A stretch of DNA of 58,585 nucleotides from Alphaproteobacteria bacterium (GTDB taxonomy: Bacteria > Pseudomonadota > Alphaproteobacteria > ATCC43930 > CGMCC-115725): positions 1-58,585 of the forward strand of contig JASHOB010000181.1 in the NCBI GenBank assembly GCA_030041335.1, written 5' to 3'. Under the pieces are notes generated by a model. That model saw only the letters and a program-made list of their open reading frames with translations, had not been told where the DNA came from and did no database searches. The number at the start of each line of letters is the position of its first letter. The first letter of the stretch is position 1. The position numbers and the translations under genes were made by a program. Positions 30,051-38,983 of this stretch are shown here, piece by piece.

Positions 30051-30509
30051 CTAGCGGTGGCGCTCTTGGTGGCTCTTCTTAGTCACTTCGACAACGCCAT
30101 GATCCGCATCCACTTTTACCCAATCACCAGTTTCGATCACTTGCAACGGGTCGCGATCAAAATCGGTCATCGTCGGGATCCGCATCACCACGGCGCCGAG
30201 GGCGATTTTGGTCGTCATCACGGTGAATAGCATGGCTCTTGGCGCGGTTTTGGTCAGACGCGTGGTGTGGAAAGCCGCTGACCAGCCCGACGAACCCTTG
30301 GCACCCGGATAGACCAGGATCTTGTCCTTGAAGCTGACGCCGCGCAGCTCGTGGCGCGTCTCGATCACGGTTCCCGTCATCGAGTTGATGCCACCCCAGC
30401 CGGAGATGGTCTGGTGCGTCACGAGCGCCTCGCCTTCGGCCACGCCGGGCGTCACTTTGCGCCCATGGAGCACGATGACATCGTTGCGCGGCGGCGCTTC
30501 GACGCTCAT
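30051..30509 (-). CDS. Aconitase X small (swivel) subunit, DUF126
   Basis: This is the separate swivelling domain of an aconitase-X enzyme. VIVLHGRKVTPGVAEGEALVT, GTVIETRHELRG and KILVYPGAKGSSG with the active-site-type Gly/Ser-rich loop are characteristic of DUF126. Start ATG 30509 gives 152 residues and overlaps the large-subunit stop by 4 bp (ATGA). Together the two subunits form a hydro-lyase. Characterised relatives act on cis-3-hydroxy-L-proline (bacteria) or mevalonate 5-phosphate (archaea). Confidence 0.88.
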   Translation of the reverse strand: MSVEAPPRNDVIVLHGRKVTPGVAEGEALVTHQTISGWGGINSMTGTVIETRHELRGVSFKDKILVYPGAKGSSGWSAAFHTTRLTKTAPRAMLFTVMTTKIALGAVVMRIPTMTDFDRDPLQVIETGDWVKVDADHGVVEVTKKSHQERHR

Positions 30510-31798
30510 GGCAACTCCCCCCGCCACTTGCCGGTGATTGCCGCATCGATGCAGTCCTCGGTCGTGCCGAACCAGGCTTCGATGCCCATCATCGCCGGCA
30601 GGTAGTGCGCCTGCTTGGCGCTGTCGAGCGCCACGACCTTGGTGCCTTTCGGTACCGCGAGCCCGATTGCGGAACAAGTATCCGTCAGGACCACCCCGCC
30701 GGCGCTGCGGATCGCCTTGGTATAGCCGTTGGTGTCGGCCATGCTCTTCACCGAACGCGAGGTAAAAATCCACAATTTGGTGCTCGCTCCGATTTTCTTG
30801 CCCTCGAGCAGGTTGGCGACCTGCCAGATCTGTTCAATGGAAGCGTGGGGGCAGCCCAGCATGACGAAATCGACATTGTCGTCGCGGCCATTGCTATTCA
30901 GGATTTCGTACGTCTTGCGCCTTTCGGCCGCGCCGTATTCGATCGTCTCTGCGGGCTTATTGCCACCGAACGCAGCCTCAAGCGATGGTGCCTCGGGCGT
31001 GATCCCGACCATATGATAAAGTTCGACGCCGCCGGACGATGCCGCGGCCGCGCCAAAATGCTTGTGGCGGATGAGATTGGGCTGGTAGCTCACGCCGCTA
31101 ATGACCGGGATGTTTTCCTCGACCGCGTATCCGGTGAAATAACCGAGCATGCCCCAGTCGATCATGCTTTCGATCGGTACCGCGACCTCGATGGCATGGG
31201 TGCCGCGGCGGAACTCGTCCCGGTGGAAACCCCAATCGGGAATCCTGCCAGTGAGCATGGCGGCGCTGGTGCTCTCGCGCCCCTCGGTGTTGGTGCGACC
31301 GCCGATTACGGAATTGCAGAAAACCACCGCCGAGGATTCCATCCAGGCGCAATGTTCACCTTTCACGGGCACATTGCCGGCGAGATAGGGCGTGCAGGTT
31401 TTCATGATCTGGATGCCGTGATCGGCGACCGCGGCCTCGTCCTCCATCTGATGTTCGAAAGCCTCGCGCGTCTTGCCCAGTGTCTGCCATTCGTTTGGGT
31501 CGAGACCGCCCTGCAGGTGGCACGAATAGGCGCTGACCCTCGGCACCGGCACGACGGTGTCGCTGTCGAGATCGAACAGGGAGAAGATCGCCTCGTAACT
31601 GCCGCCGTCGAAATCCTTGTAGTAATCCTTCAGAAACAAGGTCGACGACCCCGGCACACCGGCAATGTTATTGGTTGCGACGAAACGCTCGCAGTTCAAC
31701 GCCTCGGCATACTTTACCAGAAGCTCCATGGCTTTCTGCCTGGCCGGCCCGCTCTTGCCGTCCAGCATCGCCTTTTCATCATCGGCCAGCTTGACCAT
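30506..31798 (-). CDS. Aconitase X large (catalytic) subunit, DUF521
   Basis: This is the catalytic subunit of a two-subunit aconitase X. Family landmarks are NNIAGVPGSSTLFL, the Cys in SAYSCHLQGGLDP, FCNSVIGGRTNTEGRES, MLGCPHASIEQIW and the C-terminal DTCSAIGL. The last two carry candidate Fe-S cysteines. Length 430 fits the type II separate subunit. The reaction is dehydration or hydration of a hydroxy acid. In bacteria cis-3-hydroxyproline dehydratase is the best-known role, but no proline racemase or imine reductase gene adjoins. Its first 20 bp overlap the upstream DUF882 gene. Confidence 0.88.
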   Translation of the reverse strand: MVKLADDEKAMLDGKSGPARQKAMELLVKYAEALNCERFVATNNIAGVPGSSTLFLKDYYKDFDGGSYEAIFSLFDLDSDTVVPVPRVSAYSCHLQGGLDPNEWQTLGKTREAFEHQMEDEAAVADHGIQIMKTCTPYLAGNVPVKGEHCAWMESSAVVFCNSVIGGRTNTEGRESTSAAMLTGRIPDWGFHRDEFRRGTHAIEVAVPIESMIDWGMLGYFTGYAVEENIPVISGVSYQPNLIRHKHFGAAAASSGGVELYHMVGITPEAPSLEAAFGGNKPAETIEYGAAERRKTYEILNSNGRDDNVDFVMLGCPHASIEQIWQVANLLEGKKIGASTKLWIFTSRSVKSMADTNGYTKAIRSAGGVVLTDTCSAIGLAVPKGTKVVALDSAKQAHYLPAMMGIEAWFGTTEDCIDAAITGKWRGELP

Positions 31799-32504: not shown

Positions 32505-32602
32505 GAGGGAGGAATATGGCATACCCCGCCGAGATTGCGAGCGGAGTCATTTTGCCGGATAAATAGCGGGACGAGGGAGTGTCTTGGCGCGGGAGGACAT
32601 CA

Positions 32603-33118
32603 ATGAAGGCGGAGCAGGCTGGTATTGTCCCGGTATCTTCGGGTGTTGGCTTTGACGAGCTGCGGGCGCGTTGGGCGAAAATGCCGACCACGGTGAGGTT
32701 CAGCAGTGCCGCCGACAGCCCCGAGGTCGGCACGCCCTTCGGACCGATCTTCATTCTCTTGCGAGGCGAGGAGACCGCTGGCCAGCTCGGCCTTTATGAG
32801 CAGTTCGTCGCCGCCGGCACCGGCGCCGGGCCGCATCACCAGACGACGGAAGACGAGGTTTTCTATATCCTCGAAGGCGAGTGGGAATTTACCGCAGGCA
32901 CCGAGGTTCGCCGCTGCGGGCCAGGCACGTTGATCTACGCACCGGCCGACGTGAGCCACGCGTTCAAATCGGTTTCTCCGGACAAGCCGGGCCGCATGTT
33001 GAGCTGGAATGCGCCGGCGGGGCATGAACGCTTCTACGTCGGCATGGCAGCCGCGCGGCACAGTGGACGCGACCCCCATGAGGTCGCCAAAGACGATTAC
33101 CACGTCGTATTCGCCTGA
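32603..33118 (+). CDS. Cupin-domain protein
   Basis: This is a single cupin barrel of 171 residues. Motif 1 is seen as GPHHQTTEDEVFYILEGEWEF, with two His and a Glu for metal, and motif 2 as YAPADVSHAFKS with the third His. Start ATG 32603 follows GGAGGAC. It is the first gene of a six-gene plus-strand operon, 11 bp before a second cupin. Function could be dioxygenase, isomerase or sensor; only the fold and likely metal binding are supported. Confidence 0.82.
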   Translation: MKAEQAGIVPVSSGVGFDELRARWAKMPTTVRFSSAADSPEVGTPFGPIFILLRGEETAGQLGLYEQFVAAGTGAGPHHQTTEDEVFYILEGEWEFTAGTEVRRCGPGTLIYAPADVSHAFKSVSPDKPGRMLSWNAPAGHERFYVGMAAARHSGRDPHEVAKDDYHVVFA

Positions 33119-33129
33119 GCGGACCGGCG

Positions 33130-33489
33130 ATGGCGTATCAAAAGCCCATTGGCAAGTTCGTCCGTCGCGACGAGGCCGGGGTCATCGAAAACGGCGGCAA
33201 CACCATCGCGACGCTGTTGGCCGAGGCCGAGACGGCTGGCCGGTTCGCGGTGCGCGAGCTGACCGCGGCACCGGGCGCTGCGCCCGTGCCGCAACTGCCG
33301 CTCTCCGACAATCGCTACGTCTTTGTCGTGGCCGGCGAGTGGGAGATCCAGGCCGGAAGCGAGAGCCGCACCGTGCGCGACGGGGTGGCGATATTCGTTC
33401 CGGCCGGGGCGGTCTATGCCGCGCGCCTCACCGGCACGAGCGAAGGCAGGCTTCTCGAAATCACTGCACCGGTTGCGCGAAACGGCTGA
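33130..33489 (+). CDS. Small cupin-domain protein, metal site degenerate
   Basis: This 119-residue single-domain cupin has the pattern NRYVFVVAGEWEIQAGSESRTVRDGVAIFVPAGAVYA. The His residues expected in both cupin motifs are absent: the HxH position reads LPLSDNRY and the second reads GAVYAARL. It may therefore not bind metal. It lies between the first cupin (11 bp) and the flavoprotein (5 bp). A partner role for the first cupin or the flavoprotein is inference. Confidence 0.75.
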   Translation: MAYQKPIGKFVRRDEAGVIENGGNTIATLLAEAETAGRFAVRELTAAPGAAPVPQLPLSDNRYVFVVAGEWEIQAGSESRTVRDGVAIFVPAGAVYAARLTGTSEGRLLEITAPVARNG

Positions 33490-33494
33490 AGCGC

Positions 33495-34643
33495 ATGCCG
33501 CTCGATCGAAACGAAGCGCTGGCGCGGGCGCGCAGACTGGTGCCGGTCCTGCGCGAACGGGCGCCACAGGGCGAAACGCTACGGCGTATGCCCGACGAGA
33601 CCGTTGCCGACCTGATCGATTCCCAATTGCTGCGCCTGTGCCAGCCGGCAAGGTTCGGCGGATCGGAGCTCGGATGGGACGTGCTGTGCGAATCCTCGAT
33701 CGAGCTCGGGCAGGGCGACGGCTCCCAGGCATGGGTCGCGAACATCTACGGCGAGCATCCAATGTTTGTTGCGTTGTTCGAAGACGAAGCGCAGCACGAA
33801 GTATGGGATGGTGATGCAAATGCACTGATCTGCGCCTCGATCATTCCGCCGCGCAACAGGGTTGAGCCCGTCAGCGGCGGTTTTCGGCTCGGCGGCCGCT
33901 GGTCTTTTGCCAGCGGTGTCCATCATGCGGCGTGGATCATTCTCGGCGATTTGGTCGCCGGCGATGTGGCGGATCATCGCCTGTTCCTCGTGCCGCGTGC
34001 CGAATATCGGATCGACGACGATTGGCACACCGTCGGCATGCTCGGTACCGGGAGCGCTAGCGTGGTGGTCGACGCGTTCGTGCCGGCGCACCGTGTGGTG
34101 GCGATGCGCGACATCACCGCCGGCAAGGCGCCGGGCGCACGCGTCAACAGCGCACCGCTTTATCGCATGCCGCTCCTAGGTTTTGCCCAATTGGCGCTGG
34201 CCGCGGTGCCGATCGGCATTGCGATCGGCATGATTGAGGATTTTCGCCGTTTCATCGCGGACCGCTCGAGCGGCGCGACACTGCCCACAGGCACAGAGCT
34301 GCTGCACGAGCGGTTCGCCGAAGCGGCGGCGGAAACGCGTGCCGCACAATTGCTGGTGATGGACGCGGCGAGGAAGAACACGGAGTTGCTGGAGGCTGGG
34401 GTGCCATTGGGAGAGGGCGACGCCGCTCGCACCATGCGCGATGGCGGCTATGCCGTAACGCTGGCGCGCCGAGCGGCCATGCACCTCTTCGAGGTGACGG
34501 GTGGCCGCGGGCTCTACCTGACGGCACCGTTGCAACGCGGCTTTCGTGACGTGCTTGGCGCCTCCGCCCACGGCAGCTTGGGCTGGCAACGCAATGCGCT
34601 GCGCTATGCGCAGTATGCGCTGAGCACAAGTCATGAATTTTAA
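33495..34643 (+). CDS. Acyl-CoA dehydrogenase-fold flavoprotein, DszC/HsaA monooxygenase type
   Basis: The protein has the acyl-CoA dehydrogenase fold with a type 2 C-terminal domain, as in flavin-dependent monooxygenases HsaA, HpaH-like oxygenases and Dsz[33 protein letters not shown] and [20 protein letters not shown] are typical of that group. I see no catalytic Glu or acyl-CoA signature of true dehydrogenases. Such enzymes need a reduced-flavin supplier; none is encoded nearby. ATG 33495 gives 382 residues. It overlaps the next dehydrogenase gene by 11 bp. Substrate is unknown. Confidence 0.75.
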
Positions 34644-35775
34644 GCTCTCGGACGAGCAGCGCGCGTTTCAGGAAGCGGCGCGCGCCTTCGCGGCTCGTGA
34701 AATGGCGCCGCAGGCACGGCGCTGGGACGAGGAGAAGATTTTTCCGGTTGAAACATTGCGCGCGGCCGCGGCGCTGGGTTTCGGCGGGCTCTATGTCAAA
34801 GAGGATGTCGGCGGCAGCGGACTTTCGCGCCTCGATGGCGCGATCATTTTCGAAGAGCTCGCGGCCGGCTGTGCTTCCACCGCGGCCTTCATCTCGATTC
34901 ACAATATGGCAAGCTGGATGATCGACCGGTTCGGCGACGCGGCGCAACGGCGCAAATTTCTGCCGTCGCTCTGCTCGATGGCGAGATTTGCCAGCTATTG
35001 CCTGACGGAGCCCGACGCCGGCTCGGATGCCGCCTCTCTCATGACGCGGGCAATCCGGGACGGCGACCATTACGTTGTTAATGGCGCTAAGGCGTTTATT
35101 TCCGGTGGCGGCCAGTCCGATCTTTATGTTGCGATGGTGCGCACCGGCGGTGCCGGCGCCCGCGGAATTTCCTGCATCGTCGTTGAAAAGGACACGCCCG
35201 GCTTGATGTTCGGCGCGCAGGAGAAAAAGCTGGGTTGGAACTCGCAGCCGACCGCCATGGTGATATTTGAGGATTGCCGGGTGCCGCTCGCCAACCGCAT
35301 CGGCGCCGAAGGCGAAGGTTTCAAGATCGCCATGCAGGGTCTCGACGGCGGACGCATCAACATTGGTGCCTGTTCACTCGGTGGCGCGCGGGCCTGCCTA
35401 GAATGCGCGCGCGAGCACGTCCTGACGCGCCGTCAGTTCGGCCAGCAGCTTGCCCGTTTTCAATCGGTTCAGTTCAAGCTGGCCGACATGGCCACCGAAC
35501 TCGAGGCGGCGCGCCTCATGATCCGTCATGCGGCGGCCAGACTCGACGCCGACGATCCCGAGGCAACGCAATTTTGCGCGATGGCCAAACGCTACGCCAC
35601 CGACGCCGGCTTTACCGTTTGCAACGAGGCGCTGCAATTGCATGGCGGCTATGGCTACCTGAAGGACCTGCCGATCGAGCGGTTTCTGCGCGACTTGCGC
35701 GTGCATCAGATCCTCGAAGGCACCAACGAGATCATGCGCGTGATCGTCGCGCGGCGCCTTCTCGGCGATGACTGA
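34633..35775 (+). CDS. Acyl-CoA dehydrogenase, probable isobutyryl-CoA dehydrogenase
   Basis: This FAD enzyme oxidises a short branched acyl-CoA. It has [14 protein letters not shown] (flavin/substrate loop), [21 protein letters not shown] and the C-terminal [20 protein letters not shown] of true acyl-CoA dehydrogenases. Similarity to mammalian ACAD8 ([16 protein letters not shown]) and the next two genes point to isobutyryl-CoA to methacrylyl-CoA in valine breakdown. Length is 380 residues. It overlaps the flavoprotein upstream (11 bp) and the hydrolase downstream (8 bp). Activity on 2-methylbutyryl-CoA is also possible. Confidence 0.88.
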
Positions 35776-36778
35776 CATCGTGGTCGACAGGCGCGACGGC
35801 GTTGCGCGCGTGGTTCTTAACCGGCCCGATGCCCTCAACGCGCTGACCCTGGACATGTGCCTTGCCCTCCACGCCTGGCTCGGTGAATGGCAGCACGATC
35901 CGAGCGTCGATGCAGTCCAGGTACGTGGGCAGGGCAGTCGCGCCTTTTGCGCCGGCGGCGACATTCGCCGCCTCTACGAGGAGCGCAGCGGCGACTATCC
36001 GCGACAATTCTACCGCGCAGAATACCGTCTCAACGCACGGCTGCACCGTTTTTCGAAGCCATACATCGCCTTCCTTGACGGCATCGTTATGGGCGGCGGC
36101 GTCGGGGTTTCGGTCCATGGCAGTCACCGTATTGCGACCGAGCATACGCTGTTCGCAATGCCAGAAACGGGAATCGGGCTTTTCCCCGATGTCGGCGGCA
36201 GCTATTTCCTTAGCCGCTGCCCTGGCGCGCTCGGCATGTATCTCGGTTTGACGGGCGCGCGGCTTGCGGCCGCCGATGCGCTCTATTGCGGCATCGCCCA
36301 ATTTGTTGCGCCGTCGCAGAGCTGGGCGGCACTCAGCGGCACGGCCAGCGTTTCGCGCATTGCGCAACCAGCAGCGCCAGCGCAATTGGCACGCCACCGC
36401 GCGCTGATTGATCGATGCTTCGATAAAGACAGCGTCGAAGCGATCTTGGCGGCACTCGAAGCGGAACAGGATCGGTTCGCATCTGAAGCCCTCGTCGCCC
36501 TCGACGCTAAATCGCCGACGAGCCTCAAGATCACGCATCGCCAGATCCGCTTGGGATGCGATCTCGACTTTGACAGCTGCATGCGAATGGAATGGCGCAT
36601 GGTCAACCGCGTCATCGCGGGTCACGATTTCTACGAGGGCACACGTGCGGCGATCATTGACAAGGACCGCAAGCCGCGCTGGCAGCCGGCGCGGCTCGAA
36701 GAGGTGACGGAGGCGGAGGTGGCGCGGTATTTCGCGCCGCTACCCGGCGATGAACTGCGCTTCGACTGGGAGCAATGA
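35768..36778 (+). CDS. 3-hydroxyisobutyryl-CoA hydrolase (enoyl-CoA hydratase family)
   Basis: This crotonase-fold enzyme probably releases 3-hydroxyisobutyrate from its CoA ester. [15 protein letters not shown] and [14 protein letters not shown] begin the fold; [14 protein letters not shown] forms the oxyanion hole, and [18 protein letters not shown] is the HIBYL-CoA hydrolase pattern with its Glu and Asp. The C-terminal region ([21 protein letters not shown]) is also specific to HIBCH. Length 336 is close to the family's usual 350. It sits between the dehydrogenase and mmsB in pathway order. A few relatives are hydratases, but the context supports hydrolase. Confidence 0.9.
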
Positions 36779-36779
36779 G

Positions 36780-37673
36780 ATGGCGGCCATCGGCTTTATC
36801 GGTGTCGGCAACATGGGCGGGCCAATGGTCCGCAACCTCTTGAAGGCACGTCATCGCGTCACCGTGTTCGACCTTGCGCCCGCTGCGATCGAGCGATGCG
36901 TCGAGGCCGGCGCAGACGCGGCTCGCTCGATTCAGCAGGCCGCACACGACAACGATATTGTCATCACCATGTTGCCCGCGGGAAAGCAGGTGCGCGAGGT
37001 GTATCTCGGACAGCAGGGCATCCTCGGCGTGGCCCGGCCGGGGACGCTGCTGATCGATTCATCGACGATCGACGTTGCAACAGCGCGCGACGTCGGCGCC
37101 GCCGCTCAGAACGCGAACTTGCCGATGATCGACGCACCGGTCTCGGGCGGAGTCGGCGGGGCGCAGGCTGCGACCCTGACCTTCATGGTCGGCGGTCCGG
37201 AGGCTGCCTTTGTCAGCGCCAAGCCGATACTCGCGACGATGGGCAAGACCATTGTTCATGCCGGCAACTCGGGCAGCGGCCAGGCGGCGAAAATCTGTAA
37301 CAACATGATCCTCGGCATCTCGATGATCGGCGTTTGCGAGGCGTTCGTTCTGGCCGAGAGACTGGGCCTCGACCGGCAGAAGCTGTTTGACATCGCGAGC
37401 ACTTCCTCTGGTCAGTGCTGGTCGCTGACCAGCTATTGCCCGGTGCCCGGACCGGTGCCGACCTCGCCGGCGAATCGGGATTACGCCGCCGGGTTTACCG
37501 CCGATATGATGCTGAAAGATCTTCGCCTGTCCCAGGACGCGGCCGCTGCGACCCAGGCAAAGACCGCACTCGGCGCCCTCGCGGCACGGCTCTTTGAGGC
37601 ATTCGCCTCGGCTGGGATGGGCGGCAAGGATTTTTCCGGGATCATCGAGCTGATCCGGAGCAGCGCCGGGTAA
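36780..37673 (+). CDS. mmsB: 3-hydroxyisobutyrate dehydrogenase
   Basis: It oxidises 3-hydroxyisobutyrate to methylmalonate semialdehyde with NAD. The N-terminal Rossmann motif is GFIGVGNMGGPMV, the substrate loop is DAPVSGGVGGA, and the catalytic Lys is in GSGQAAKICNNM. Length 297 is normal. The ATG is 1 bp after the hydrolase stop. It ends the operon; the next valine-pathway enzyme (methylmalonate-semialdehyde dehydrogenase, mmsA) is not in the window. Confidence 0.93.
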   Translation: MAAIGFIGVGNMGGPMVRNLLKARHRVTVFDLAPAAIERCVEAGADAARSIQQAAHDNDIVITMLPAGKQVREVYLGQQGILGVARPGTLLIDSSTIDVATARDVGAAAQNANLPMIDAPVSGGVGGAQAATLTFMVGGPEAAFVSAKPILATMGKTIVHAGNSGSGQAAKICNNMILGISMIGVCEAFVLAERLGLDRQKLFDIASTSSGQCWSLTSYCPVPGPVPTSPANRDYAAGFTADMMLKDLRLSQDAAAATQAKTALGALAARLFEAFASAGMGGKDFSGIIELIRSSAG

Positions 37674-37783: not shown

Positions 37784-38983
37784 CTATTGCCCGGCCATCA
37801 CGTCGCCGAACAACTCCCACTTTTGGCCGTTGAAGCGCTCGAGCGCGGCTTCGACGATCGGATGGTACTGGCGAGGGCTCGTGAAAAAGCTGACGCCGGG
37901 CAGCAAACCGATCGGGTGGAAGTCCTTGAGATTGGCGGCCTGGCGCATGATGTTGCTGCGCGACAGGTCGTCGCCGCATTGTATCAGCACCTGCACCATA
38001 GCCTGCGCTTCGATATAGCCGTAGAGGAGGTAGGCGTTGGCCGGGTTTTCGCCGCGCAAGTATTTGGCGACGAAGGTGTTGTAGGGCTTCAGAGTGCCAT
38101 CCTCGGTCCAGCGCGGATCACCCGGATCGAGGTAGCTGGTTGCGGTAATCAGCCCTTTCGCCTTGTCGAGCCCGGCGGGCGCGAGCACGGCCGGCACCGA
38201 ATTCGCGGTGAAAGATATGAAATGCGTCGGGTGCCAGCCGAGGTCGTAAACCCCCTCGATCGCGTGGATGGCGTGCTTTGCCGTGGCCGCCGATATCAAG
38301 ACGTTCGCTCCGGAAGCATGCAGCGCCTTCAACTGCGCCGCAATTGACGTATCGTTTTCCTCGTAGCTTGCGATCTTGACGACATGTTGATCGAAGCTGT
38401 CACCGAATACCTGACGTAAACCGGTCAGGTAGGACTTGCCAAAATCGTCATTGCGGTAGAGCACGGCGACCTTGGCCTGGGGCATGTCGATGAGGATCTT
38501 CCGGCCGTAGATCTGCGCCTCGATGCGATAGAGCGGGGTGCCGCCTATCGTCCACGGATAGTGCCGGAAATCGCCCGCGACATCGGCCCCGGTGAAGGTG
38601 AAGAGCTGCGGTATCCCGTTTTGGTTGAGGTAGTCACGGATTTCCAGGTTCGGGCTGGCGCCCTGAACCGAGAAGATCGCGGCGACTTTGTCGCGATCGA
38701 TGAGCTCCTTCGTGAGCGCCACCGTCTTTTTGGGATCATAGGTATCGTCGCGGCTCACGAGCACGAGCTTGCGGCCGTTCACGCCGCCCTGATCGTCGAT
38801 CATTTTAAAGTAGGCGGCTTCTGCCCGCCCGACCGCGCCGAGGATCGCCGCCGGACCCGAATAGGGTTGGGTCTGACCGATCCGGACTTCCCCGTCGGTC
38901 ACGCCAGGCGCGTTCTCGGCCCAGGCCGCTGGCGCGACAAGGCACCAGCTGCCGATGAGTGCGGCGGCGATTTTTCGCGGCAT
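37784..38983 (-). CDS. Orphan branched-chain amino acid-type ABC binding protein
   Basis: This is a LivK-class periplasmic binding protein of 399 residues. A signal peptide (AALIGSWCLVAPAAWA) is followed by GEVRIGQTQPYSGPAAILG, YFKMIDDQGGVNGRKL and LVSRDDTYDPKKT, all typical. Start ATG 38983 fits the signal peptide. No permease or ATPase gene is next to it. It is a different subtype from the anchored binding protein at 16 kb and lacks a C-terminal anchor. It converges with mmsB. Ligand unknown. Confidence 0.87.
   Translation of the reverse strand: MPRKIAAALIGSWCLVAPAAWAENAPGVTDGEVRIGQTQPYSGPAAILGAVGRAEAAYFKMIDDQGGVNGRKLVLVSRDDTYDPKKTVALTKELIDRDKVAAIFSVQGASPNLEIRDYLNQNGIPQLFTFTGADVAGDFRHYPWTIGGTPLYRIEAQIYGRKILIDMPQAKVAVLYRNDDFGKSYLTGLRQVFGDSFDQHVVKIASYEENDTSIAAQLKALHASGANVLISAATAKHAIHAIEGVYDLGWHPTHFISFTANSVPAVLAPAGLDKAKGLITATSYLDPGDPRWTEDGTLKPYNTFVAKYLRGENPANAYLLYGYIEAQAMVQVLIQCGDDLSRSNIMRQAANLKDFHPIGLLPGVSFFTSPRQYHPIVEAALERFNGQKWELFGDVMAGQ

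Follow-up and report, generated by a model that had tools for sequence, protein, structure and literature searches.

A module of two cupin genes and a putative aromatic hydroxylase gene ahead of valine breakdown genes, so far seen in one alphaproteobacterial genus

In the window (the whole 58,585 nt stretch of alphaproteobacterial DNA analysed here), a module of three genes, encoding two cupins and a flavoprotein that looks like an aromatic hydroxylase, is placed directly in front of three housekeeping genes for valine breakdown (Table 1). The module perhaps supplies these with isobutyryl groups derived from a phenol that bears an isopropyl or isobutyryl substituent. We offer this reading tentatively, as a possibility that falls somewhat short of probable, and the link via the substrate is one that we infer from the neighbourhood and the protein families.

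Table 1. Positions in the window of the six genes and of the region preceding them
Feature	Position	Strand	Details and basis
Cupin1	32603..33118	+	171 aa; ORF and Pfam
Cupin2	33130..33489	+	119 aa; ORF and Pfam
Flavoprotein, putative HsaA/HPAH-C2-type group D monooxygenase, oxygenase component	33495..34643	+	382 aa; Pfam, NCBIfam, AF2 fold
Isobutyryl-CoA dehydrogenase (ACAD8 type)	34633..35775	+	380 aa; structure match 1rx0
3-Hydroxyisobutyryl-CoA hydrolase (HIBCH)	35768..36778	+	336 aa; PRK05617, 4hdt, 3bpt
3-Hydroxyisobutyrate dehydrogenase (mmsB type, HIBADH)	36780..37673	+	297 aa; TIGR01692
Presumed promoter region of the six-gene row	32523..32602		80 bp gap to divergent MepK-like gene (− strand)

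The original prediction had placed all six genes on one strand, separated by gaps of 11, 5 and 1 bp or overlapping by 11 and 8 bp, and the open reading frame calls agree exactly (+11, +5, −11, −8 and +1 bp in gene order). At the junction of the module with the valine genes, the flavoprotein and dehydrogenase frames overlap by 11 bp here and by 4 bp in a second species of the genus, G002, and overlap in both species suggests selection for joint expression. We infer that the six genes are co-transcribed as a single unit. No match to the sigma-70 consensus was found between positions 30500 and 39500, where shuffled sequences average 2.1 matches.

The dehydrogenase, HIBCH and HIBADH genes are ordinary housekeeping valine genes. 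Among chains of known structure, the dehydrogenase matched human ACAD8 (1rx0) at 555 bits and the next chain at 326 bits. The hydrolase scored 412.7 bits with PRK05617 (cut-off 274) and the HIBADH 431.6 bits with TIGR01692 (cut-off 291.6). The next copies in the same genome are no more than 41 % (dehydrogenase) and 40 % (HIBADH) identical. The same trio forms the known alphaproteobacterial valine cluster, from which the row differs in having the flavoprotein-cupin module in front and in belonging to a genome where mmsA does not score above cut-off. The three enzymes had been predicted to catalyse consecutive steps. Their families are confirmed, but the series has a gap: methacrylyl-CoA hydratase, which acts between isobutyryl-CoA dehydrogenase and HIBCH, was not found in the row with Pfam or NCBIfam models, the sole crotonase there being of the HIBCH type. 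An additional ECH_1 gene is carried by clusters L134 and L135.

The best score of any gene in the genome with the mmsA model (TIGR01722) was 294.9 bits, for a gene on contig C23, against a cut-off of 448.5. None of four genomes of the genus, three of them incomplete, has an mmsA gene above this cut-off, and none was found in G001, G004, G009, G012, G018 or G023, all of which have the dehydrogenase. These results, and the lack of a hydratase gene in the row, would fit a bypass of a missing valine step, with methylmalonate semialdehyde or methacrylyl-CoA being handled by the flavoprotein and cupins. However, the six genomes just named also lack close orthologues of both the flavoprotein and cupin1 (G001, G018 and G023 are 78–82 % complete), and the fold of the flavoprotein is that of phenol hydroxylases. 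We consider a bypass very unlikely. Replacement of mmsA by the flavoprotein was rejected, as mmsA was also not found in dehydrogenase-bearing genomes without a close flavoprotein or cupin1 orthologue.

By its predicted fold, the flavoprotein looks like the oxygenase component of a group D aromatic (phenol-type) hydroxylase. Its best NCBIfam model was the HsaA equivalog NF045629, at 266.3 bits and under the cut-off of 450. The HPAH-C2 model gave 173.7 bits (cut-off 650) and the DszC model NF043015 only 47.9 bits, far from its cut-off of 850. Hence, of the earlier designation 'DszC/HsaA-type', the HsaA part can be retained, while DszC is a far more distant relative. A fold search with the AF2 model (mean pLDDT 88.9) returned HsaA, the 3-HSA hydroxylase (HsaAB) of steroid degradation (2rfq, Z 52.2 and 33 % identity over 375 residues; 3afe, Z 51.4), and p-hydroxyphenylacetate hydroxylase C2, which has the same group D fold but is 25 % identical (2jbr, Z 49.4). 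The best acyl-CoA dehydrogenase reached Z 38.5 and ACAD8 Z 36.7; on these values and the NCBIfam scores, the idea that the flavoprotein is itself an acyl-CoA dehydrogenase serving valine breakdown was rejected. Rv3094c and XiaF also matched, at Z 45.8–47.1, so the common fold does not determine the substrate. Unlike the HsaAB system, the row includes no gene of the HsaB, HsaC or HsaD kind (reductase, ring-cleavage enzyme and hydrolase, respectively); two PF01613 flavin reductase genes are found elsewhere in the genome (contigs C165 and C68).

Amine N-hydroxylases of the isobutylamine type, such as VlmH of valanimycin, have the acyl-CoA dehydrogenase fold, and isobutylamine is a product of valine. 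Were the flavoprotein such an enzyme, the row would degrade isobutyl-nitrogen compounds to isobutyryl-CoA, and KijD3, which we take to be an N-oxygenase, is indeed among the fold matches. However, its Z of 36.9 is typical of the acyl-CoA dehydrogenases and lower than that of HsaA by about 15, and the nearest homologues of the flavoprotein adjoin ring-opening dioxygenase genes (see below). An N-hydroxylase is, in our view, extremely unlikely.

Outside the rows in the window and G002, the nearest homologues of the flavoprotein are encoded on another contig of the same genome, C164 (locus L041), and at locus L032 (60–61 % identity). In a midpoint-rooted tree with long branches (44 rows, the window and G002 proteins being repeated), the window and G002 flavoproteins cluster with these two with support of 100/99; the branch that sets the window and G002 flavoproteins together, separate from those of C164 and L032, is supported at only 89/72. 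In both C164 and L032, a LigB gene (PF02900; 121.5 and 122.3 bits, respectively) is directly upstream of the flavoprotein gene. Ahead of the LigB gene is a further small gene, LigA-like, which scores 34.7 bits with PF07746 in C164 and matches no Pfam model in L032. As in the row, the flavoprotein gene directly follows a two-gene dioxygenase-like cassette. However, the dioxygenase is of the LigB type and there are no valine genes, whereas the row has cupins and valine genes. The cupins in the row occupy the position taken by a LigB-type dioxygenase beside the nearest homologous flavoproteins.

Homologues of the flavoprotein, cupin1 and the dehydrogenase were collected with short flanks. At 37 loci of other flavoprotein homologues, excluding those in the window and G002, small home-made profiles with Pfam checks gave lower bounds of 15 loci with a flavin reductase gene (in L035 and L039, kilobases away from the flavoprotein gene), two with LigB (C164 and L032), one with a weak LigB-like gene and one with an intradiol dioxygenase gene. 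No cupin was found beside other flavoprotein homologues among the collected loci using the home-made profile, likewise a lower-bound search. Of 92 plasmid records that include a homologue of the flavoprotein, all are below 60 % identity, and the top-ranked among the best 20 of the 92 is 38.4 % identical.

Cupin1 consists of a single Cupin_2 domain (PF07883, 45.9 bits, cut-off 27.2). The canonical cupin metal site is made up of two His, a Glu and a further His, and cupin1 has a near-complete version (H78, Q80, E85 and H119) in which Gln replaces the second His. Cupin2, a homologue that shares about 31 % of its core with cupin1, just passes the same model (27.9 bits), but retains no metal ligands. 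The expectation that one cupin lacks metal-binding His residues was borne out in cupin2, and the copy in the window contains no His at all. Database matches were generic. For cupin1, only Cupin_2, Cupin_3 and AraC_binding passed the Pfam cut-offs, and no NCBIfam model did; for cupin2, the matches were Cupin_2 and ureidoglycine aminohydrolase, the latter at 21.5 bits where the cut-off is 200. Searched alone against solved structures, cupin1 recovered weak, mixed relatives headed by a DMSP lyase (E 3e-5). With a four-row cupin profile, the best match was an uncharacterised protein, and Bacillus quercetin 2,3-dioxygenase (E 8e-7) was found among mixed cupins. The AF2 model of cupin1 has a mean pLDDT of 49.8. 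The pair may resemble the two-subunit hydroquinone dioxygenases of the PnpCD type, a name absent among the cupin matches listed. None of 17 loci with cupin1-like genes includes a flavoprotein homologue, and inspection by eye of the neighbours in six of them (L137, L138, L140, L148, L149 and L151) revealed no common theme.

The two cupins are small, have one domain each and match generic models only, and cupin2 has no metal site. They could thus be non-catalytic, a pair that senses, stores or stabilises the small molecule made by the flavoprotein and leaves any ring cleavage to another enzyme. We regard this as improbable, since H78, E85 and H119 of cupin1 are kept in both species and its dN/dS of 0.085 shows it to be as strongly conserved as the enzymes.

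In the reading that we prefer, the flavoprotein would be the oxygenase of a two-component flavin hydroxylase and would hydroxylate a phenolic substrate, the reduced flavin being supplied by a reductase whose gene lies elsewhere. Cupin1 would serve as the metal-binding catalytic subunit and cupin2 as its metal-free partner in a putative heteromer. What the flavoprotein has hydroxylated would be the most likely substrate of the pair, which would thereby take the ring-opening role of LigB-type enzymes, with cupin1 as the candidate for ring cleavage. Provided that the substrate has an isopropyl or isobutyryl side group, opening of the ring followed by hydrolysis would set isobutyrate free, and this, once converted to its CoA ester, would pass through the dehydrogenase, HIBCH and HIBADH reactions. 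The original prediction had suggested an entry route that generates an isobutyryl-type acid from a larger substrate. Because the flavoprotein is hydroxylase-like and its nearest homologues adjoin LigB, an entry route oxygenating a larger, probably aromatic substrate is reasonable. An isobutyryl-type acid is a putative product. Neither a ring-fission hydrolase nor a CoA ligase, nor a flavin reductase, is among the six genes.

A comparable sequence of reactions is described in the main text of PMC12442392, in which the words cupin and valine are absent. In Rhodococcus sp. D-6, IppA1A2/IppB includes an HsaA-like (31.5 % identity) group D hydroxylase that acts on 2-isopropylphenol. As described there, the hydroxylation of an isopropyl-substituted phenol precedes a ring-opening dioxygenase, but the enzyme that opens the ring is an extradiol dioxygenase resembling BphC2, and the Ipp cluster includes a reductase gene (PMC12442392). 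The D-6 pathway yields 2,3-dimethylbutanoic acid, not isobutyrate; formation of isobutyric acid from 3-isopropylcatechol is known from another strain (PMC12442392). In the portions of the open-licence literature on this theme that were covered, no paper was found that mentions isobutyryl-CoA dehydrogenase or 'group D flavin'. A more far-reaching version is that a split cupin ring-opening dioxygenase, with one metal-binding and one metal-free subunit, replaces the LigB type beside an HsaA-type hydroxylase and forms with the valine enzymes one unit degrading an isopropyl- or isobutyryl-phenol via isobutyryl-CoA. This would be a new entry of branched aromatic side chains into valine catabolism, and we consider it unlikely.

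The oxidative module has so far been seen in one genus. In G002, the order cupin1-cupin2-flavoprotein and the order flavoprotein-dehydrogenase-hydrolase-HIBADH are each kept on separate contigs. The stretch from cupin2 to the dehydrogenase is not covered by any single contig, and the two contigs bear different flavoprotein alleles (86.9 % nucleotide identity over 573 bp). The G002 orthologues of cupin1 and cupin2 are 85 % and 69 % identical to those in the window. As both gene orders are kept at a dS of 0.7–1.2, with dN/dS of about 0.09–0.16 for five genes and 0.37 for cupin2, the row appears to be more than chance. In congener G001 (80 % complete), the module is not at the matching place, and one further congener gave no data on it. 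In loci from other genera, the module was absent upstream of the dehydrogenase in 17 of 18 (tblastn, E ≤1e-6); in the remaining one, L119, the sequence ahead of the dehydrogenase is only 252 bp long. Conservation of the cupin and flavoprotein genes beside valine genes, to which the original prediction had looked, was therefore found in one congener, on two contigs, but not in the other or in these 17 loci. Among 385 genomes of the class (evenly drawn, with only the best candidates per genome scored), none but the genome itself has a flavoprotein match at E ≤1e-95 or a cupin1 match at E ≤1e-18. A scan of 84,980 species with short exact peptide patterns, which can miss relatives, identified 10 loci; among these, cupins or valine genes occur on two contigs, both belonging to a single MAG (G002). 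A widespread module was rejected on the basis of these two scans.

This distribution bears on a further explanation, namely that there is no shared pathway, and that the module degrades a phenolic unrelated to isobutyryl units, landed upstream of the valine genes and shares their transcription. The trio is together without the module in 13 of the 18 loci from other genera (L119 has too little upstream DNA to tell). In G001, a different set of genes separates the MepK/AcnX genes from the dehydrogenase gene, indicating that this slot tolerates changes, and the LigB clusters with the nearest flavoprotein homologues are free of valine genes. However, the overlapping frames at the junction in both species speak against a mere accident of position. 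We consider an unrelated phenolic quite possible, though it too falls short of probable.

If the preferred reading, in which the module feeds isobutyryl groups to the valine enzymes, is correct, the row would provide a genetic handle on the use of isopropyl- or acyl-substituted phenols by some Alphaproteobacteria, and the cupins would represent a small two-subunit oxygenase with one dead subunit. In addition, mmsA, whose product normally completes valine breakdown, was not found in this genus. Should the connection to valine prove fortuitous, the row would still illustrate the capture of a module for aromatic hydroxylation by a housekeeping operon.

The six genes of the row lie on one strand with spacings of +11, +5, -11, -8 and +1 bp from the first to the last junction, exactly as the original prediction had it, and the row is a new combination of genes from known families. 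Upstream, a divergent MepK-like gene on the - strand (139.7 bits, under the model cut-off of 185) separates it from an AcnX (aconitase X) gene, which is overlapped by an ORF resembling, by eye, the AcnX small subunit. A consensus promoter scan of the region, a weak test in an alphaproteobacterium, gave no match.

Features of the gene row and its flanks (window coordinates)
Feature	Position	Strand	Remark
AcnX (aconitase X) with overlapping ORF	30051-31798	-	upstream of row, adjoins MepK-like peptidase gene
cupin1	32603-33118	+	
cupin2	33130-33489	+	
flavoprotein	33495-34643	+	
isobutyryl-CoA dehydrogenase	34633-35775	+	
3-hydroxyisobutyryl-CoA hydrolase	35768-36778	+	
3-hydroxyisobutyrate dehydrogenase (HIBADH)	36780-37673	+	
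periplasmic binding protein (Peripla_BP_6)	37784-38968	-	directly downstream of valine genes, opposite strand

The valine part of the row is ordinary. The fourth protein matches human isobutyryl-CoA dehydrogenase ACAD8 at 555 bits (next solved enzyme, 326 bits), and the fifth and sixth pass the NCBIfam models for 3-hydroxyisobutyryl-CoA hydrolase (412.7 bits, cut-off 274) and HIBADH (431.6 bits, cut-off 291.6). The original prediction had these three genes catalyse consecutive steps from isobutyryl-CoA to methylmalonate semialdehyde. However, the steps are not strictly consecutive, because the methacrylyl-CoA hydratase step falls within the pathway that they cover and its gene is absent from the row. 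An ECH_1 gene accompanies the trio at two other loci, L134 and L135. A dehydrogenase match at E <= 1e-90 was found in 25 of 41 genomes (own included), and the surroundings of 18 matches from other genera (at least 61 % identity) were fetched. The trio is gathered in 13 of these, the dehydrogenase is with HIBADH in two, and it is without both in three. No homologues of the cupins or flavoprotein were found in the 18 stretches (tblastn, E <= 1e-6). Upstream of the dehydrogenase the stretches run for 1 kb or more, except in L119, where the 252 bp present are too few to judge absence.

The methylmalonate-semialdehyde dehydrogenase gene, mmsA (TIGR01722), exceeds the cut-off of 448.5 bits in 24 of 41 genomes but in none of the four of this genus, three of which (all save the window's own) are only 61-80 % complete; the best score in the own genome is 294.9 bits. 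Despite this, isobutyryl-CoA dehydrogenase is present in all genomes of the genus except G003. mmsA was also not found in some other genera of the family.

The congener G002 (the MAG behind JASHUX01) was the only other genome to yield close orthologues of the module formed by the two cupins and the flavoprotein. On one of its contigs, cupin1 (85 %) and cupin2 (69 %) are followed by the N-terminal 184 residues of the flavoprotein (84 %), where the contig stops. The other opens with 115 bp of upstream sequence, then a flavoprotein gene (79 %), the dehydrogenase (85 %), the hydrolase (78 %) and a HIBADH gene (85 %) truncated at the contig end. The two flavoprotein pieces, at the ends of contigs C157 and C392, share 86.9 % nucleotide identity over 573 bp and are therefore two alleles or copies, which reflect either mixed strains in the MAG or a gene duplication. 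Before the start of the second, 20 of 25 bp agree with the cupin2 end on the first contig, a likeness that fades further upstream (46 of 115). Between the window and G002, dN/dS is 0.085 (cupin1), 0.37 (cupin2), 0.12-0.16 (flavoprotein) and 0.10-0.14 (valine genes).

In the congener G001, the dehydrogenase (83 %) is at the matching place near MepK-like and AcnX genes, and its locus has no cupins, flavoprotein, hydrolase or HIBADH; the hydrolase (71 % over the available piece) and HIBADH (70 %) are together on another contig. The slot between the G001 dehydrogenase and MepK-like genes (L118, 2886-5122) is occupied not by the module but by a small gene and one for a membrane protein that looks HTTM-like by eye. 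In the window, G002 and G001 alike, the AcnX-MepK block neighbours either the dehydrogenase or the module. G003, 61 % complete and lacking a dehydrogenase match at E <= 1e-90, is uninformative on the module. Of 385 genomes of the class, only the own one reached E <= 1e-95 for the flavoprotein or E <= 1e-18 for cupin1. Conservation of the module beside the valine genes thus holds for G002, on two contigs, and fails for G001 and 17 loci of other genera.

Pfam recognizes only acyl-CoA dehydrogenase C-terminal domains in the flavoprotein. The top NCBIfam model is HsaA (266.3 bits, below the cut-off of 450), then p-hydroxyphenylacetate hydroxylase (173.7), while DszC scores far lower (47.9); of the "DszC/HsaA-type" label, the HsaA half fits much better than the DszC half. 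The AF2 model (mean pLDDT 88.9) matches HsaA with Z scores of 52.2 and 51.4 and HPAH-C2 with 49.4. A second acyl-CoA dehydrogenase was rejected, as Z for these enzymes is at most 38.5 (ACAD8, 36.7). Rv3094c and XiaF are also good fold matches (Z 45.8 and 47.1), and the fold therefore gives the enzyme class, not the substrate. Judged by its predicted structure, the flavoprotein belongs to the group D hydroxylase type. Such enzymes require a reductase; the row has no reductase gene, and two flavin reductase genes (PF01613) are elsewhere in the genome. The 5.2 Mb genome has 15 flavoprotein matches versus only these two reductase genes.

A tree of 44 rows, which include repeats, clusters the window and G002 flavoproteins with homologues from own-genome contig C164 and locus L032 (support 100/99), with 89/72 for the branch parting the two pairs. 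In both C164 and L032 the gene directly upstream of the flavoprotein is LigB (121.5 and 122.3 bits), and ahead of it comes a small LigA-like gene, of which Pfam recognizes the C164 copy only. These nearest kin point to ring cleavage. Across 37 homologue loci outside the window and G002, searched with home-made profiles in mostly short flanks, a flavin reductase is present in 15, LigB in two (C164 and L032), an intradiol dioxygenase gene in one, and in one a gene only weakly LigB-like, whose 18.9 bits fall short of Pfam's 26.3. The C164 genes (L041, 7617-11147; LigA-like, LigB-like, HsaA-type flavoprotein 61 % identical to the window's, and cobalamin-independent methionine-synthase-like) adjoin amidohydrolase and, by eye, sugar-transport genes, and are probably a second phenolic-degradation cassette. 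Five of the remoter flavoprotein loci (L011, L014, L016, L020 and L021) have a beta-hydroxyacid dehydrogenase 26-32 % identical to the row's HIBADH in the short flank.

The cupins are mutually homologous (about 31 %). At the classical metal-binding positions, cupin1 carries H78, Q80, E85 and H119. The window copy of cupin2 contains no histidine anywhere and its G002 orthologue none at these positions, confirming that one cupin lacks metal-binding histidines. A profile of the four cupins finds mixed solved cupins, led by the uncharacterized 1v70 (E 2e-7), with the quercetin 2,3-dioxygenase of Bacillus next (E 8e-7) and others behind; cupin1 alone best matches DMSP lyase (E 3e-5). We infer a heteromer of one working and one dead subunit, in the place of a LigB-type enzyme.

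A substrate linking both halves would be a phenol with an isopropyl or isobutyryl group. Each half of this link has precedent in PMC12442392: Rhodococcus sp. D-6 has an HsaA-like hydroxylase, with 31.5 % identity to HsaA, that acts on 2-isopropylphenol, and in strain HBP1 Prp, cited there, cleavage and hydrolysis of 3-isopropylcatechol yield isobutyric acid. The D-6 product given there is 2,3-dimethylbutanoic acid, and simple transfer of that pathway is therefore disfavoured. An alternative of about equal likelihood is that a common promoter is all that connects the two halves. The original observation stands, and its interpretation as an entry route to an isobutyryl-type acid or as oxygenation of an intermediate is half supported. 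The most economical account is that an aromatic hydroxylase and a cupin pair were added, at genus level, before housekeeping isobutyryl-CoA genes, and that purifying selection has preserved this module, which adjoins those genes tightly in two species.
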